Positions 20,701-51,163 of a DNA stretch of 52,548 nt are shown here, in pieces. Each line of letters starts with the position of its first letter. Position 1 is the stretch's first letter. The stretch is from a virus, in the IMG/VR virus record IMGVR_UViG_3300042691_016209, positions 1-52,548 of that record, one strand, 5' to 3'. The notes below the pieces were generated by a model that saw nothing but the letters and a program-made list of their open reading frames with translations, was not told where the DNA came from and ran no database searches. A program made the position numbers and the translations under genes.

Positions 20701-22448
20701 ACTTTGGAACATCAACATCAGGGATAGTAGACACTCAGTTCTTCAATTGCTTTGCATATGGCAACGGAGCAGAGTCATACAAGGTAAGGGATTCCGTTGT
20801 CGGAAGGACATTCAACTTGGGCAACAGGATTACTACAGTTGCCGCACAAGACTACAAAGAAGCAGACAGGTTTGCAGACCTCACGTATTCGGGTGTATAC
20901 AACGACGAGAGCAACGTGAACAGGCTGAACGCATTCAATATGGGTCTGCTGAACTTCAAAGCGTTGGAGGACTCCTTTGGACCCATTACGTTGATTGATG
21001 CACGTGAGACTGATATACTTGTTCTTCAGGAAGACAAAATCTCTTATGTACTTGCAGGTAAAAACCTTTTGTCTGATGCTGCCGCAGGTGGTGCAATCAC
21101 ATCTGTTCCTGAAGTATTGGGGACTCAGATTGCTCGTATCGAAAAATACGGCAACAGTTTCAACCCTGAATCATTTGCAAAGTGGGGGTCAGACAAGTTC
21201 TTCACGGATGCAAAACGTGGTGCTGTAATCCAATTGCAGGGTGACTCGTACAACAATGAAAGGCTTGCTGTAATTTCTGAAGCCAATATGCGTCCTTGGT
21301 TCAGGGACGTATTCATCGACACATTGGGCAAGCAGAAGTTGGGTGGATACGACCCATACATGACCGAGTACGTGTTGTCAACCAACAACATACCAATCCC
21401 TACACCTTCGGATTGCATTGGCTGTGGTTTCAAGCAGACATTCACAATCCTTGGTCCTGAGAATCCTCAAATCTATTGCGTGGATTTGGGCATTCTTGTG
21501 GGGGACTTTACTATCACTTGGGAAATTACGAGCCTTACACCGGGTGCTACAGTATCCGTTGATGCGACATACGATGGTGTTACGACATCTTCGGGACCTG
21601 TTGTTTCAGGTGGGTCATTATCAATCACAAAGGGAGGTGTTTCACCTACCACAGTTGACATAGACATATCATCCACAGGTCTTGCATCAGTGAAGGTTAC
21701 CGTGTCCTGCCCTGAGGTTACCGAGATAACAATCATCGAGGTAGTTCTTACGGATGATGTTGACAGTGGCAAGTACATCCACGCTGAGTACAAGTACGTG
21801 AACGGTCCGTACATCAGTCCGACCACATCGAACTTGGTTACGTTCCAATCCTCAATGACAGTGCCCTTGGTTTCGAGGTACAATTCCTCTACAGGGGCAC
21901 AAGGATTTGGAAGTTTCCCACTTGATGGTTCTGTTGTGACACTTATCTCCAACAAGATAGGGTTCGATGATTTCGACTTCAATCCTGCAACGAACAACTT
22001 CAGGTGGTTGAGGTCTAACACACTGTACAACAACACGAGCGTTGATATCAATGCTCTATTGGTTGCTGCAAACGTCGCTGCTCCAATCATGGGGTCAGCA
22101 CCAACGTATTACGCAGACTTCGTGATGCCGACATCTACAGACCAATACCTGTACTTGATTTGGGACTTGCGTTCTCCTGTCGAGACTGTGTTGTGTTACG
22201 ACGAGTTGTCCCTGATTTCTGCTTGCTGTGGTTGTGGTGGATGTCTTGAGTTGTGTTCGTACTATGAACTGACCAACAGCACTGAAGGAGCGAATGTTCA
22301 ATACACCGACTGTTCTTCAGGCGAGACATTCATTGTGAGCGTACCACTTGGGGTATCATACCTATGCTCAAGCACATTGCCTGTACCAATCAGGGGTGCT
22401 GAGGTTGATGTTGTATTTTCGGAATGTGGATGTCCATCAATAACGTAA
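17718..22448 (+). CDS. Large tail nozzle/muzzle-like protein with Cys-rich C-terminal module
   Basis: 1576 residues. The opening (FTSGRMNKAFDERVIPNGEY, then IDALNCRLGSTEESEIGSLEN) resembles the start of T7 gp12-like nozzle proteins and related large podovirus tail proteins, which form the distal tube. Most of the chain is beta-rich. Residues about 770-950 (bases 20030-20560) are visibly more AT-rich, with ATA, AAT and AGT codons, than the flanks, suggesting a replaced or inserted domain. A later block carries Ig-like strands. The last 65 residues (about 1510-1574) form a Cys module (YELTN...YTDC...G..Y.C...F.ECGC) that recurs in the next gene. A host-contact role is likely but inferred. Confidence 0.7.
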   Translation: MANFSRNFTSGRMNKAFDERVIPNGEYIDALNCRLGSTEESEIGSLENSKGNIKLTTLQYIDGTPLSANARAIGAYEDGANETIYWFVHDPTFTLGATGKLDLIVSYNVQTTVLTYHVVSIDDGSTINTTLNFNPLYLITGVNLVDSDSEGLLFWTDDYNQPRFINITRNYNTPVAFIDQFSAESLLVIKKPPIEAPTISFLTSSNQENFLEERFICFAYRYKYADNEYSATSQFSEPAFIPKPFNFEVNSFLNEGMVNIYNTVQISFNTGGPLVVGIDLLFKEAANNTIKVIEKLDKTILGWGNNTIQNYTFNNSKIFTVLPEAELLRLYDNVPRLAKAQTIMGNRLVYGNYVEGYDLIDKFDSPLRLTYYTDLQTEIINNFDLSDNTDNGVYNWGSFEVVPNAMLVVDFTNVANNLNAGAQITIDVELTHNRFTGYSPSPPSQITQSAQFNWTFTLPTNYASVAAMASSVQFQDAVGTVANIKPVYDPNPLNPTSCDGFTFTDVFNCSIPNTLSLGFSTIPLGNTFVSKSQSGITGPGQPIFISPVYLGDINKVGFTFPAMKFQEDRNNPTSPQYSVYEFFEIDNARVSFTDVGAMKSLHSNRGYDVGIVYMDEFNRASTALVSENNTVHVPCGNCDSRNWIKVTIPTTQRAPYWAKRYKFVIKADRENYETIYASIFFIDPATNNAYILLDGENARKVESGDRLIVKADSTGPAQTCQYVTVLEKEAKPDDFLQIPSVLDPSTNIHVPGGVYMKVNPNNLSLVYDEESYITYGTINRVASGAGLYPVVYYPVNRYDTVTSQWSDYDIPAGSRIVFDFEFERRGSASSNNCEKRYYKLTKTLISSSNYINFKAWFDGDNVENILNDGFQEVGGVGQCSIGNVYNNTLLNGTIPYSNTDYTFSPPGDLCNNQYQFIQDPSTLKTALRIIGTRACGTNKNNRSTLKVNIQVFRAEDLLIFETEPSDTLPDVFYENNMSFGVGPNGEHLGNIQDQDFGTSTSGIVDTQFFNCFAYGNGAESYKVRDSVVGRTFNLGNRITTVAAQDYKEADRFADLTYSGVYNDESNVNRLNAFNMGLLNFKALEDSFGPITLIDARETDILVLQEDKISYVLAGKNLLSDAAAGGAITSVPEVLGTQIARIEKYGNSFNPESFAKWGSDKFFTDAKRGAVIQLQGDSYNNERLAVISEANMRPWFRDVFIDTLGKQKLGGYDPYMTEYVLSTNNIPIPTPSDCIGCGFKQTFTILGPENPQIYCVDLGILVGDFTITWEITSLTPGATVSVDATYDGVTTSSGPVVSGGSLSITKGGVSPTTVDIDISSTGLASVKVTVSCPEVTEITIIEVVLTDDVDSGKYIHAEYKYVNGPYISPTTSNLVTFQSSMTVPLVSRYNSSTGAQGFGSFPLDGSVVTLISNKIGFDDFDFNPATNNFRWLRSNTLYNNTSVDINALLVAANVAAPIMGSAPTYYADFVMPTSTDQYLYLIWDLRSPVETVLCYDELSLISACCGCGGCLELCSYYELTNSTEGANVQYTDCSSGETFIVSVPLGVSYLCSSTLPVPIRGAEVDVVFSECGCPSIT

Positions 22449-41588: not shown

Positions 41589-43037
41589 TCACAATGTTAG
41601 CAAATCTTTCTTGAAATGTGAAACCGTATAGTCCCTTTTTTTGATGACTGCATCATAAATTAGGTCCTCGATTCCACCTTGTGAAAACACCCAATAGACT
41701 TTGTTTTCGACCCTGTCCCTTGTAGTCATCCTGTCACGTGACTGCCAATAACTCGTCGCACTGAAGTCGATGTTGTAGTACACCAAACACTCGGCTTGCT
41801 TCAAGGATATGCCTTCCCGCCCTGAGACAATCTGCAATGCGATGTTCTTGTCAGTGTGTTCGAACACACTCAGTTCAGTCGTCAGCATATCACCGAATAC
41901 TTTCGTCAAGGCATTCAACTCTTCTTTGAATTTGTAGAAGATTGCAATCTTCTTGCCATTGAAATGTTCTTTGATGAACTCAGCCTTTGAGTAGTCCAAT
42001 ACCATGGAGTTACCACTCTCAAACTTGACAGTTCCGCTGTACAGTTGGTGAAGTTTCTGCATGAGTTTGACGCTCGTGTCTGCAAGTATCGTTTCAGACT
42101 TGCCTTCAAACACCAAGTTCTTCTTCAGTCTGTCAATTATCATGTAGGTAGCATCTTTAAGTTTTACCTTCAAGATTTCTTCTTTGGTCCTAACAACGAA
42201 CCCTGCCTCCTGTTGGCTGAACCTGATTGTGTACGGAACCATCGCATCCAACACAGTGGCTTTGGCTCCTGAGTAATCCTTAATCATCACACCGTTAATC
42301 AACCTGCTCGATATGTTGACATAGTCGTCGCTCCACCTGTAGAAGTTCTTGTATGATGCGAACGGACTGTTCTTGATGCCATACAGTTGGTGGTACATCT
42401 GAGAGTACGATTCGGGAGTTGGTGTGCCTGACAGTAGGATGACCCTGCTGTTGTATCTTTCCACCAATTCCTTCACCATCTTTGCCCTGATGCTTGGCTT
42501 AGGGAAGGCACCAAGCGTATGCGCTTCGTCACACACGATGACATCCCATTTGATTTTCGGGAGTTTATGGATGGACTCATAGTTCTTTACGAACATCACA
42601 TAGTTCGGACACAACTTGTTGAGGTCATCCGTGATTGATGAAATGGCTTTCTTCTTTGTCAGGAACAAAACGTTCTCGACATTCGGCAGGTTGTCACAGA
42701 TGCTCAGGCTCGTCAATGTCTTGCCTGTCCTGACCTCCATGGCAAGGTAGACGAACCCATGCTTGTTGATGAGTGGGACAGCCTTGTCCACTATCTCTTG
42801 CTGATAGTCCCTGAGTTCAATAAGATTATTCATTTCTTGCGATTGTAAATGTTTGTAGTAAGTGATTGAGTCCGACAGTTTTTCCAAGTATCCGTCGGGC
42901 ATTTTGTACTTTGGAAGGTATAGTGGCTTACCCTTCCTGACTGTATTTGTCGGGACCGTTTTAGTCGCAACCCTGTACAGCCGTTCACAGTATTCCACCA
43001 TACCTCCGTATGAGTAACCCGCAATACGCTCGACCAT
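41589..43037 (-). CDS. SNF2-like superfamily 2 helicase
   Basis: 482 residues from ATG 43037, two bases after the primase stop; an upstream in-frame ATG at 43097 would overlap that gene by 58 bases. Motifs in order: LRDYQQEIVDKA (Q-motif-like), Walker A EVRTGKT (101-107), DEAH (170-173), SGTP (203-206), and a motif V/VI region with REGISLKQAECLVYYNIDFS and YWQSRDRMTTRDR. This set is typical of phage SNF2/type-III-restriction-like helicases that act in replication or recombination. It uses ATP to translocate on DNA. A hairpin-core copy lies within its codons at 41853. Confidence 0.85.
   Translation of the reverse strand: MVERIAGYSYGGMVEYCERLYRVATKTVPTNTVRKGKPLYLPKYKMPDGYLEKLSDSITYYKHLQSQEMNNLIELRDYQQEIVDKAVPLINKHGFVYLAMEVRTGKTLTSLSICDNLPNVENVLFLTKKKAISSITDDLNKLCPNYVMFVKNYESIHKLPKIKWDVIVCDEAHTLGAFPKPSIRAKMVKELVERYNSRVILLSGTPTPESYSQMYHQLYGIKNSPFASYKNFYRWSDDYVNISSRLINGVMIKDYSGAKATVLDAMVPYTIRFSQQEAGFVVRTKEEILKVKLKDATYMIIDRLKKNLVFEGKSETILADTSVKLMQKLHQLYSGTVKFESGNSMVLDYSKAEFIKEHFNGKKIAIFYKFKEELNALTKVFGDMLTTELSVFEHTDKNIALQIVSGREGISLKQAECLVYYNIDFSATSYWQSRDRMTTRDRVENKVYWVFSQGGIEDLIYDAVIKKRDYTVSHFKKDLLTL
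41853..41870 (-). repeat. Dispersed palindrome inside helicase gene (copy 6)
   Basis: AGTGTGTTCGAACACACT, identical to the copy at 25004. In the helicase frame it encodes LSVFEHTD. Perfect palindrome, so no strand bias. It lies between motifs III and V, where the sequence is not conserved in the family. Confidence 0.65.
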
Positions 43038-45977: not shown

Positions 45978-45995
45978 AGTGTGCTCGAACACACT
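45978..45995 (-). repeat. Dispersed hairpin after exonuclease gene (copy 7)
   Basis: On the minus strand AGTGTGTTCGAGCACACT forms a hairpin with one U-G pair next to the loop; the plus strand would have C-A. It starts at the last base of the exonuclease stop codon. The bases after it (ATTTACC) are not a T-tract, so it may cap or attenuate rather than fully terminate. Confidence 0.7.
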
Positions 45996-48369: not shown

Positions 48370-48762
48370 CTATCCATAAACGTATTCCCCCATGACCATG
48401 AATTGAAACACCACATCGGATGACTCGCCATCCCCATTGCCTTCAATCTCAGACATCAGGAACTTCTGCATAACCTCGTCATCCATAATCTTCTGAAGAC
48501 CTGTCCTGATTGACTCGGAAGACAGCACTCCAATGCACTCACCATCCGTGTCCTCGATGTCATGCACAGGAATCTCAGCACCGTTTTTGACGGCATCCAA
48601 TATCCTTACGGAGAATGGCTTGCCACCCTCTGAATTTGAATGGATAATGTCGCACGCATCTTCGTTTAAGAAGTACCAATAGTTGGATGCACCTTCTATT
48701 GCTGTCGTTATGATGTCGCTCAGGACCTCGTCCTTCACAACAATGTCCAACTTAATTTCCAT
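48370..48762 (-). CDS. Hypothetical acidic protein
   Basis: 130 residues, acidic. MEIKLDIVVKDEVLSDIITT is followed by AIEGASNYWYFLNEDACDII, a pattern (D-E-x-h-x-x-h-h-x-x-A-h-E-G-x-x-x-Y-W) that I associate with short conserved phage proteins of unknown role. A C-terminal helix carries DDEVMQKFLMSEIEG. The end overlaps nothing; the start overlaps the upstream gene by 11 bases. Function unknown. Confidence 0.6.
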   Translation of the reverse strand: MEIKLDIVVKDEVLSDIITTAIEGASNYWYFLNEDACDIIHSNSEGGKPFSVRILDAVKNGAEIPVHDIEDTDGECIGVLSSESIRTGLQKIMDDEVMQKFLMSEIEGNGDGESSDVVFQFMVMGEYVYG

Positions 48763-49003
48763 AGGTGGTGATTGTTACAAGACCCCAAAAAAACTTCTTG
48801 ACCTTCATGACCTTGGGCACGCTCACCTTGGAAGACTTGTACGCCTCGGGATGCTTGGCTTTGAAGATAGCCATCTTCTGTACCACTGTCCTCGCATTGG
48901 CATAGTCACCCTTCGAACCTTGGTGGTAAATCTTGATGAACTCGTTGACCAAGTTGTTGGTCCACACGAAGTTGTCGTCATGAATAAAATCTTCTCTTTT
49001 CAT
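48752..49003 (-). CDS. Hypothetical protein downstream of hammerhead A
   Basis: 83 residues; ATG at 49003 lies 28 bases after the end of the first hammerhead. MKREDFIHDDNFVWTNNLVN, then a helix EFIKIYHQGSKGDYANARTV and a basic region (FKAKHPEAYKSSKVSVPKVM). The acidic-then-basic layout suggests a small globular helical domain. No family recognised. If the hammerhead cleaves, its mRNA would begin with a 5'-OH and the rest of the ribozyme. Confidence 0.6.
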   Translation of the reverse strand: MKREDFIHDDNFVWTNNLVNEFIKIYHQGSKGDYANARTVVQKMAIFKAKHPEAYKSSKVSVPKVMKVKKFFWGLVTITTYGN

Positions 49004-49031
49004 AATACAAAATGTTAGTGATGTTTGACAA

Positions 49032-49082
49032 TCCGTTTCGTCCTTTTGGACTCATCGGCATGGGCACCCACCCATGGACGGA
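49032..49082 (-). ncRNA. Type III hammerhead ribozyme A (one core deviation)
   Basis: Minus-strand fold: stem III TCCGT/ACGGA, cleavage-site C at 49077, stem I CATGGG-TGGGTG-CCCATG, core CCGATGA (49058-49052), stem II GTCC-AAAA-GGAC, then GAA (49039-49037). All parts follow the hammerhead plan except that the core base equivalent to U4 is C (base 49057). The equivalent U is present in copy B. Cleavage would fall between 49077 and 49076. The U4C change probably lowers activity, so this copy may be weak or evolving. Confidence 0.8.
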
Positions 49083-49105
49083 AGAGTGTGTTCGCACACA
49101 CTCTT
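49082..49105 (-). repeat. Hairpin abutting hammerhead A (dispersed family, copy 8)
   Basis: On the minus strand AAGAGTGTGT pairs perfectly with ACACACTCTT around a GCGA loop (GNRA type). It begins nine bases after the amidotransferase stop codon and touches ribozyme stem III. After cleavage it would remain near the 3' end of the upstream mRNA. Confidence 0.85.
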
Positions 49106-49114
49106 GCCAAACTA

Positions 49115-49753
49115 TCAGTATTCAGTATAAACCTCGCCACAATCCTTGCAGGTGAACACACCGAAACCAATGTTCCTGATGTCACCACCCATGCAAGCAG
49201 TACACCTGTTGCCAATGGTATCGGCATACACCCTGTCCTGTTTGCGATAGTTGTAGTTGAAGTCCTGAACCATGTACGGGTTTGAATACAGCACACCACC
49301 CTTGGATGCCCACAGGTTGCTGTTGTAAACCTCGACATGACCCGACTTGGTGTTCACAGTGGCGAACTTGACACCTGAGAAACGCTCCAACTCGCGCTTC
49401 CAATCCTTCCTCGGAACATCACCAAGCAAGGATGCCAAGTGCCTTGTGTCACTGCACTCGGCACTGCCCAACCCACTGATTGTGCCGTTCATGACAAGTT
49501 GCTCATGCGTGCCGTCAACCCTGTTAGGGTGCGTGTTCTCATGACAAACCTTGCCGACAGTGGCATACCTGAAGTGGGCGACATACGGTCTGTTGCAGAC
49601 CAACCTATGCCACATGGATGAATCCATCTTCTCAACCTGCAAAGTGTCCAACCAAATGATACCCAAACCATCAGGGTTGCTGTATGCAGAACGGGAGATG
49701 ATAGACTCGGGCACGGACATGGTGCCCTCACGCTTAACGATAATAATGCACAT
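49115..49753 (-). CDS. Class-II glutamine amidotransferase-like protein with C-terminal zinc ribbon
   Basis: 212 residues from ATG 49753. This start places Cys at residue 2, the N-terminal nucleophile of class-II (Ntn) amidotransferases after Met removal; upstream in-frame starts would destroy this. Supporting features: NPDGLGIIWLD near residues 27-37, the strand YVAHFRYATVGKV with a conserved Arg, and VMNGTISG (the HNG/NG region). Such domains hydrolyse glutamine to supply ammonia. The C-terminus carries CTAC...CKDC (184-187 and 202-205), a zinc ribbon, which is unusual. No synthetase domain is attached, so the acceptor is unknown. A TATCTTTG box lies 30 bases upstream. Confidence 0.78.
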   Translation of the reverse strand: MCIIIVKREGTMSVPESIISRSAYSNPDGLGIIWLDTLQVEKMDSSMWHRLVCNRPYVAHFRYATVGKVCHENTHPNRVDGTHEQLVMNGTISGLGSAECSDTRHLASLLGDVPRKDWKRELERFSGVKFATVNTKSGHVEVYNSNLWASKGGVLYSNPYMVQDFNYNYRKQDRVYADTIGNRCTACMGGDIRNIGFGVFTCKDCGEVYTEY

Positions 49754-49783
49754 AAAAAGAACAGTTAGTGATGAATGATTTGA

Positions 49784-49791
49784 CAAAGATA
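49784..49791 (-). promoter_or_regulatory. -7 box TATCTTTG upstream of amidotransferase gene
   Basis: On the minus strand TATCTTTG lies 30 bases before the ATG at 49753, with a TTG 20 bases further upstream, the spacing expected of a Bacteroidota -33/-7 promoter. This is the best promoter match in the window. Transcription from here would cross hammerhead A. Confidence 0.6.
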
Positions 49792-49800
49792 CAACAATTA

Positions 49801-49959
49801 TTACACAAGAACAACTCTTGCGTGGAAATATTTCCTATCCAACATGAAGTCAGTCAACGACATAGCCTTCTCAATGGCTTCCCACTTGCTACTTGCAAGC
49901 ACATTGCCGATGAACACACCCCTGTGGAATACCTTCCATGGGACATACCTTTCTTTCAT
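49801..49959 (-). CDS. Small hypothetical protein
   Basis: 52 residues from ATG 49959, read directly: starts MKERYVPWKVFHRGVFIGNV, then an amphipathic helix SSKWEAIEKAMSLT and a basic end (DRKYFHARVV). The W-x-V-...-G-x-x-I-G-x-h...A-I-E-K-A pattern is common in small phage proteins that form a strand-strand-helix fold. It overlaps the end of the transglycosylase gene by 71 bases in another frame. Confidence 0.6.
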   Translation of the reverse strand: MKERYVPWKVFHRGVFIGNVLASSKWEAIEKAMSLTDFMLDRKYFHARVVLV

Positions 49960-50383
49960 ATAGCCTCCGTTTTACTTTAGTCCAATAAATTTCAGTACCA
50001 TCCTTGCCCATGCCACGAGGACCACCGTTCCACGTGCGTGCCACGGACTCATGGCTTCCGTCAACACCGATGCCGTGACGCTCATGTATCCTGAACATGG
50101 CAAGGGACTTGCATACATTCCACCTGTCATCGAGCGTGAAACCTCCACCTCCAATCCTGTTCACCTCACGCACCATCACAGGTCTTATTTGCAGGATGCC
50201 GACAGCATCCTCACGCTCATTGCATATGCTCGGGTCACCGCCCGATTCCACCATGGCAACAGCACACACGAAGTGGTCCACAGGTATGGACCCGCACCCG
50301 ACATATCCAATGACGGGCACAAGTCCATCACCAAAAACACTGTGCATGAGAACCATTGATATCACAATCGACAACCTCATCAC
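49889..50383 (-). CDS. Lytic transglycosylase-like protein (SLT domain) with signal peptide
   Basis: 164 residues. The N-terminus (MMRLSIVISMVLMHSVFGDG) looks like a Sec signal peptide. The catalytic region reads HFVCAVAMVESGGDPSICNE (E46 in ESGG), then GILQIRPVMVREVNRIGG and VARTWNGG, the three landmark segments of SLT/goose-type transglycosylases that cleave the glycan backbone of peptidoglycan. Such enzymes are normally virion-borne or late; here it sits in the early operon and is predicted to be exported to the periplasm. The last 24 residues overlap another small gene. The overlap with its upstream neighbour is ATGA. Confidence 0.78.
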   Translation of the reverse strand: MMRLSIVISMVLMHSVFGDGLVPVIGYVGCGSIPVDHFVCAVAMVESGGDPSICNEREDAVGILQIRPVMVREVNRIGGGGFTLDDRWNVCKSLAMFRIHERHGIGVDGSHESVARTWNGGPRGMGKDGTEIYWTKVKRRLYERKVCPMEGIPQGCVHRQCACK

Positions 50384-50721
50384 AATTGAATCAGGTTGTC
50401 ATACTTGCAATGCTCAATGTTGCCGAGGTGGAATTTGCTGACATAGTCAGGGACTCGGACGACCTTAACCTCGCACATATCGTGGTAGTCATGGTATCTG
50501 ATGACCGTGCACCCATGTATGTTGCTGTCAGGTGCGTTAACCAAGTACACAGGAGCCACCGAATCCACCATACAAAGCATACGCTCACCTACGGTGAACA
50601 CCGAGCCTTGTGGGACTGTTATCAGCATGATTTCGTAATGGTCGTGACCTGCATCGCGCAGAACCTTCACATAGCACCCGTATAGTGGGTCATTCTTGTC
50701 TGTTACAATGTTAATTCCCAT
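50380..50721 (-). CDS. Hypothetical protein downstream of hammerhead B
   Basis: 113 residues, ATG 50721 lying 27 bases after hammerhead B. Predicted beta-barrel-like: KNDPLYGCYVKVLRDAGHDH, then YEIMLITVPQGSVFTVGERM and NIHGCTVIRYHDYHDMCEVK. The strand pattern with turn glycines resembles a KOW- or SH3-like small barrel, which would suit RNA or protein binding, but no family is recognised. The stop overlaps the transglycosylase start by ATGA. Confidence 0.6.
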   Translation of the reverse strand: MGINIVTDKNDPLYGCYVKVLRDAGHDHYEIMLITVPQGSVFTVGERMLCMVDSVAPVYLVNAPDSNIHGCTVIRYHDYHDMCEVKVVRVPDYVSKFHLGNIEHCKYDNLIQL

Positions 50722-50748
50722 AGTCGTGATTGATTATAGATTTGAATT

Positions 50749-50801
50749 TCCCGTTTCGTCCTGTCGGACTCATCAGCATGGGCGAATACCCATGGACGGG
50801 A
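50749..50801 (-). ncRNA. Type III hammerhead ribozyme B (complete core)
   Basis: Minus-strand fold: stem III TCCCGT/ACGGGA, cleavage-site C at 50795, stem I CATGGG-TATTCG-CCCATG, core CTGATGA (50776-50770), stem II GTCC-GACA-GGAC, then GAA (50757-50755). Every conserved hammerhead core base is present (C3 U4 G5 A6 N7 G8 A9, G12 A13 A14, H17). Both ends lie in stem III, so it is type III. Cleavage would fall between 50795 and 50794. Compared with copy A, stems I-III are the same or covary and loops differ. Confidence 0.92.
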
Positions 50802-50833: not shown

Positions 50834-51163
50834 TCACTCACCTTCAACAACCTCAACCCAAAATGGGACATGACACCCACTCCTGAGAAAGTGTGAGTCA
50901 ATCATCTCCTGAGCCTCGTCAGGTGAACACACGATGTACGTTGTCACATCATGCATACCCCTGCTGTCAGCCTTGCGAACGTAACGGTCGTGACCCTTAC
51001 GTGCCCCGTTGAGTTCGTTAACGTGGTTAGCCATTGCAATCTGACCATCCCTGCGCGTGCGGAATGTTTCTTCCCATCCGCACCACGAAGGACGATACCC
51101 TTTGAACTTGTCATACCTGAACTCAAGTACCAAGTACCCGCGCGTCTTTACTTTGTAATTCAT
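50834..51163 (-). CDS. Hypothetical protein upstream of hammerhead B
   Basis: 109 residues, basic N-terminus and acidic C-terminus. It opens MNYKVKTRGYLVLEFRYDKF, has a conserved-looking WCGWEETFRTRRDGQIAMAN core and ends FWVEVVEGE. Four cysteines/histidines are scattered rather than paired. No family recognised. It is coupled to the gene before it by ATGA and its stop is eight bases from the hairpin of ribozyme cassette B. Confidence 0.6.
   Translation of the reverse strand: MNYKVKTRGYLVLEFRYDKFKGYRPSWCGWEETFRTRRDGQIAMANHVNELNGARKGHDRYVRKADSRGMHDVTTYIVCSPDEAQEMIDSHFLRSGCHVPFWVEVVEGE

Follow-up and report, generated by a model that had tools for sequence, protein, structure and literature searches.

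Hairpin–hammerhead cassettes between the genes of a bacterial virus and a topology difference in the hairpins upstream of phage hammerheads

Introduction

Why would a phage place a self-cleaving RNA between two protein genes, directly behind a hairpin, and which of the two cleavage products would it serve? Phage hammerheads, their clusters and the idea that they process polycistronic mRNA were published in 2011 (Perreault et al., 2011; PMC3088659). Cleavage in vitro is on record for clustered phage hammerheads, as is cleavage in E. coli for one Agrobacterium arrangement (PMC3088659). The role of prokaryotic hammerheads was called an open question in a 2017 review (PMC6155905). We address it here with the genome of a virus of bacteria, IMG/VR record IMGVR_UViG_3300042691_016209, whose 52,548 bases were analysed as a whole (the window). 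The gene set includes a large terminase, a portal protein, a single-strand annealing protein, an exonuclease, a primase/helicase and a helicase, and no DNA similarity to sequenced phages was found. Most of the leftward genes overlap or are almost contiguous. Two of the gaps between them, 50833–50722 (112 nt) and 49114–49004 (111 nt), are nearly filled by a hairpin, a ribozyme and a leader.

Results

A reading of the window from its sequence only had described a complete type III hammerhead on the minus strand, and the Rfam match, the fold and the covariation within its family bear this out at 50748–50801. The model RF00008 (Hammerhead_3) matches the minus strand from 50802 to 50748 over its full length with 48.1 bits, which corresponds to E = 1.4e-7 when the window is compared with 4227 Rfam families. 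That reading had looked to the Rfam models for support: the full-length match provides it, at a score that is 0.4 bit below the gathering cut-off of 48.5. A default Rfam scan of the window lists a tRNA alone, copy 1 being absent because its score is below gathering. Stem III pairs 50801–50796 with 50754–50749 and leads into the GUC cleavage triplet, with U16.1 at 50796 and C17 at 50795. Stem I (50794–50789 with 50782–50777) is closed by the six-nucleotide loop UAUUCG, the core CUGAUGA follows at 50776–50770, and stem II (50769–50766 with 50761–50758) carries the loop GACA and is followed by GAAA at 50757–50754. The motif thus contains CUGANGA, GAAA and an NUH triplet, and the covariance-model alignment and the fold both give three helices, of which stem III is open while loops cap stems I and II. 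The core, the three stems and the GTC site had all been read correctly, and our predicted cleavage site, 50795/50794, is the one given previously.

The hairpin GGGAGUGUGUUCGCGCACACUCCC (50825–50802, minus strand) begins 8 nt past the upstream gene's stop and abuts stem III with zero gap, so that the ribozyme does lie right behind a hairpin, as had been claimed. Folded together, hairpin and ribozyme take the expected structure as their minimum-energy fold (−30.8 kcal/mol, z −2.8). There is one occurrence of the pattern CTGATGAG-N4-20-CGAAAC in the window against 0.02 expected. A chance origin is rejected on the E-value and the covariation. Loops I and II are UGNGUG with NAAA in relatives, where they are conserved, and UAUUCG with GACA in copy 1. 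Upstream lies a gene for 109 amino acids (50834–51163, minus strand, from the list of open reading frames; TGA stop at 50836–50834) that has no PHROG or Pfam match. An A/U-rich leader (50748–50722, minus strand) runs from the ribozyme to the ATG at 50721 of a 113-amino-acid gene (50380–50721, minus strand). The ribozyme had been placed between two early genes; two co-directional genes do flank it, and ‘early’ is our inference from gene content, since replication and recombination genes share this strand in the leftward operon.

The window also holds a second type III hammerhead, at 49030–49084 on the minus strand (RF00008, 38.4 bits, E = 8.1e-5; gathering cut-off 48.5), with predicted cleavage at 49077/49076. 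The sequence-only reading, right about copy 1, had overlooked both this copy and the spread of the hairpin through the genome. RF00163, tried as a better model for copy 2, gave a weaker match of 23.3 bits. Copy 2 likewise sits between genes, namely one at 49115–49786 (minus strand; stop at 49117–49115, start codon uncertain) and one for 83 amino acids at 48752–49003 (minus strand; ATG at 49003), and behind its own hairpin, AAGAGUGUGUGCGAACACACUCUU (49082–49105, minus strand). Hairpin and ribozyme seem to have been copied as one unit, because the 81% identity between the copies extends over 72 nt that span both. Copy 2 folds best with the hairpin and with stems I and II in place, but with stem III rearranged. 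Its core, CCGAUGA, departs from the CUGANGA consensus by U4C, and among 38 gap-free ribozymes of the family U4 is changed only here. A U4C viroid variant has lowered activity in vitro and yet supports infection (PMC3088659). Copy 2 probably cuts more slowly because of its U4C. The RNA expected between the two predicted cleavage sites (50794–49077) is 1718 nt long and includes a gene with a transglycosylase SLT domain (49889–50383, minus strand; Pfam PF01464, E = 1.1e-5).

We then looked at the cassette in relatives. Neither a search of viral contigs with a pattern that fits the window ribozyme exactly nor the small protein adjacent to the ribozyme retrieved any, and it was a primase scan that reached 80 related viral loci. 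RF00008 matches at E ≤ 0.001 in 25 of the 80 records, with 1–4 matches each, and record MW202828, outside the 80, has no RF00008 match. Many of the 80 records are fragments; with this reservation, the matching share suggests that the element is dispensable or replaceable. The family set comprises 50 distinct hammerheads, the window's two included, and all 50 are on the sense strand. Their common layout is a stop codon, a hairpin, the ribozyme, a leader of usually 19–33 nt and an ATG: an annotated stop codon lies 19–67 nt upstream in 49 of them, and the ATG follows at 19–33 nt in 42 and at 43–50 nt in four more. When a hairpin is counted strictly (five or more base pairs, three or more of them G–C, and an end within 8 nt of the ribozyme), 45 of the 50 have one, and it lies 5–13 nt from the cleavage site; three of the remaining five have a more distant hairpin. 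No single gene goes with the cassette, because the neighbouring proteins fall into many groups (27 among 46 downstream and 18 among 50 upstream). Stem pairs in the 38 gap-free ribozymes are standard in 98.4% of cases, compared with 30–39% over the slides of the partners that were computed, and up to six pair types occur per position. In the family members L226, L228, L229, L231, L232, L233, L250 and L252, stem II opens with a U10.1–U11.1 mismatch (CUGANGAUUC...GAUGAAA), a tolerated variant (PMC3088659).

The two hairpins belong to a set of near-identical 16-nt palindromes, GTGTG-N6-CACAC, of which the window holds nine (at 2243, 7859, 14957, 25005, 37962, 41854, 45979, 49086 and 50806) against 0.05 expected in shuffles. 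Only two are linked to ribozymes, the seven further copies lying elsewhere in the genome. Seven of the nine fall 0–33 nt past a stop codon, in rightward and leftward operons alike, and two have T-runs behind them and are terminator-like. Among the relatives, 35 have two or more palindromes of this kind, and these are exclusively GTGTC-N6-GACAC; all copies seem to have been switched together in the window phage. The palindrome at 41854–41869 is inside the helicase gene, which is odd for a 3′-end element; the relatives L123, L126, L134 and L150 have palindromes in a similar sequence context. At 45979–45994 the same hairpin comes right after the stop codon of the exonuclease and before the next gene, as a hairpin-only junction devoid of a ribozyme. 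A terminator scan gave no intrinsic terminator at the ribozyme hairpins, which are followed by stem III and not by a U-tract. A sigma-70 promoter downstream of the ribozymes was likewise considered and rejected, promoter-like sites in the region being at chance level (21 found, 23 expected). Strand-specific wobble pairs in the palindromes, considered as a sign of RNA-level selection, were dropped because the numbers are too small.

Is the hairpin a general companion of intergenic hammerheads? A discovery scan for the core and stem II, blind to type, covered at least 120 viral stretches and found an adjacent upstream hairpin in 23 of 31 type III but three of 66 type I ribozymes. The topology idea was set at this point and then tried on newly made scans, for which one record was kept per group of related flanks; these scans again sampled at least 120 stretches with a fixed stem II sequence, so that the rates that follow are those of a sample. 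Made non-redundant, the discovery set (viral GTCC) gives 18/25 for type III against 2/58 for type I. The viral GTTC set gives 24/36 against 0/10, which brings the two viral sets to 42/61 and 2/68. The set with a CTGACGA core gives 8/13 against 4/57 (p = 5e-5). In bacterial genomes the difference is weaker, with 25/69 (36%) against 0/12. It was thus upheld in all three scans made after the idea was formed, with types assigned by pairing score and ties and weak cases (5–10 per set) left out. In the bacterial set only 21 of the 69 type III sites have a detected gene on either side. Many bacterial matches are in Patescibacteria (CPR) assemblies, and 69 of the 81 that were classified, non-redundant, are type III.

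Type II behaves differently from type III: 13 of 83 viral cases have an upstream hairpin, against 6.4 expected from shuffles, and these hairpins are scattered 1–8 nt away. Ordinary intergenic sites of the same loci have a hairpin in 32 of 225 cases (Fisher p = 4e-16 against type III); this control answers only in part the point that type I abuts the stop codon, where the sequence in front is mostly coding and hairpins may be rarer. The rule is stable to thresholds and still gives 29/48 for type III once the GTGTC hairpin of the window-phage family is removed. Hairpin sequences before type III differ widely between phages, and hairpins just 3′ of type III are rare (4/25 in the GTCC set, 1/36 in the GTTC set and 0/69 in bacteria). 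Viral ribozymes of types I and II begin directly at the stop codon (medians of 2 and 1.5 nt in the larger sets), whereas viral type III starts about 26–32 nt past it, which leaves room for the hairpin; the latter ends 5–14 nt from the cleavage site (median 7). In L008 and other viral loci stem I of type I often overlaps the upstream stop codon (about −2 to 3 nt), and the terminating ribosome and ribozyme folding should therefore compete.

The three layouts can be brought together. Cleavage by types I and II leaves the ribozyme's own stem III, which is a closed hairpin, with the upstream product. In type III this stem is open and the ribozyme departs with the downstream RNA, for which reason, we propose, a separate hairpin is required. 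With all three layouts the upstream mRNA would thus finish in a hairpin. Whether this amounts to a design rule, by which intergenic hammerheads of phages, and partly of bacteria, always yield a hairpin-ended upstream mRNA, with protected 3′ ends made without a terminator and with transcription continuing as the selected function, is in our judgement evenly balanced.

Discussion

We consider it fairly probable, from the layout and its conservation, that the two cassettes divide the leftward, presumably early, transcript by self-cleavage and that the upstream mRNA gains a protected hairpin end. Each cassette of the window consists of a stop codon, a hairpin, a ribozyme, a leader of ∼28 nt and an ATG. 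After transcription the ribozyme would cut past C17. The upstream mRNA would then end in the hairpin and a tail of ∼5–8 nt with a 2′,3′-cyclic phosphate. Given the general properties of PNPase and RNase R, such an end, with a short tail that carries a cyclic phosphate, would be expected to resist 3′–5′ exonucleases. The downstream mRNA would begin with a 5′-OH directly at the stem I hairpin, would keep the ribozyme in its leader and would gain a short, fixed leader, and the long early transcript would be split into units with separate lifetimes. In other phages types I and II would make the same upstream end from their own stem III, with type III using the hairpin added in front. A hairpin-capped upstream 3′ end and a downstream 5′-OH had already been proposed for copy 1; they follow from the anatomy, and the comparative test speaks for them. 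What the analysis shows is the presence of the ribozymes, their layout, their covariation and the difference between topologies; cleavage in the cell, stabilization, exonuclease protection and the effect on expression are what we infer.

The ribozyme might instead serve the downstream gene, trimming upstream sequence and setting a standard 5′ end and leader in the manner of the synthetic insulator RiboJ, with the upstream hairpin only preventing the two parts from misfolding. The stretch from ribozyme to ATG is indeed short and varies little (median about 20–25 nt for types I–III in the viral sets), type II and III products begin with the stem I hairpin, and the family members L205, L240 and L247 carry a hairpin after the ribozyme and before the ATG, as RiboJ does. 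However, type I leaves the downstream RNA free of 5′ structure and is yet common at such sites, and the restriction of the upstream hairpin to type III is not explained; we regard this possibility as unlikely, if worth keeping in mind. It is improbable that the hairpin is an aid to folding, by coaxial stacking on a short open stem III or by insulation from upstream sequence and terminating ribosomes: its presence is independent of stem III length, type I and II ribozymes with short open stems right at a stop codon lack it, and hairpins are rare 3′ of the same open stem, even though stem III of type III is just 3–6 bp long and the hairpin most often abuts it with zero gap (24/45 in the family; 12/18 and 13/24 in the viral sets).

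A further reading makes the palindrome of this phage group a binding site (an operator, a stoperator-like site or an RNA–protein site) that a phage factor recognizes by its sequence, its place before ribozymes being secondary. This would suit the coordinated switch between the nine near-identical copies and the GTGTC-N6-GACAC of the 35 relatives, and also the copy within the helicase gene. We nevertheless think it quite improbable, since outside this group type III hairpins are of unrelated sequence, which points to RNA structure over one DNA site, and seven of the nine copies in the window come after a stop codon. The same-strand pair flanking a three-gene segment, together with the ability of hammerheads to ligate, could suggest that the 1718-nt segment is excised and ligated into a circular RNA, but spliced or circular products of phage hammerheads were sought and none found (Perreault et al., 2011; PMC3088659), and with a family copy number of 1–4 pairs are not required; the prospect is very faint. 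Almost negligible is the idea of a chance motif or a decayed copy devoid of function: the core substitution in copy 2 and the many related records with no match would fit it, against the E-value of copy 1, the strong covariation and the constant layout across 50 family hammerheads.

The topology rule points to the upstream mRNA's 3′ end as the product held constant by selection, and it turns the question of the role of hammerheads into simple tests of upstream mRNA half-life. If this is true, phages make a stable mid-operon 3′ end from a ribozyme and a hairpin while transcription is not stopped, and the combination could also be put to use in constructs that express several genes.

Comparison with known systems

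The window copies share with RF00008 the core, the three stems, the GUC triplet, the open stem III and the sizes of loops I and II, and they differ from it in their short stems, their closed 6-nt loop I, their scores (48.1 and 38.4 bits against 48.5) and, for copy 2, the U4C change in the core. The hammerhead family is known; the stereotyped cassette and the hairpin rule are apparently new, as we did not find them in the accessible literature, where an earlier description in a subscription journal is possible. The main text of PMC3088659, searched for hairpin, stop codon and terminator, mentions neither a paired upstream hairpin nor a topology rule. As in the clusters of that study (Perreault et al., 2011; PMC3088659), several hammerheads lie between genes of one operon, two of them in the window, both on the sense strand and between phage genes; here, unlike there, one stereotyped cassette recurs across a phage group. 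The HHphage hammerhead of the haloviruses HF1 and HF2 is similarly placed shortly upstream of an early-gene start codon, and an mRNA 5′ end maps within 3 nt of its cleavage site, but it has a variant core that needs high salt and belongs to an archaeal virus (PMC3088659).

Among cultured phages, Bcep176 gave nothing with RF00008 or RF00163, though a core-variant hammerhead has been published there, and PaP3 gave a weak RF00008 match of 17 bits that by eye reads as a type I hammerhead right at a stop codon. Cellulophaga phage phi18:3 has a candidate that RF00008 missed (L563, 2494–2550; about 21929–21952 of the record), by eye a canonical type I hammerhead with the core CUGAAGA between two small genes. 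The closest engineered counterpart is RiboJ, a synthetic insulator with a hammerhead in the 5′ leader and an added hairpin between ribozyme and ATG. The RiboJ hairpin is downstream of the ribozyme, whereas the regular hairpin of the window is upstream and would go with the other product.
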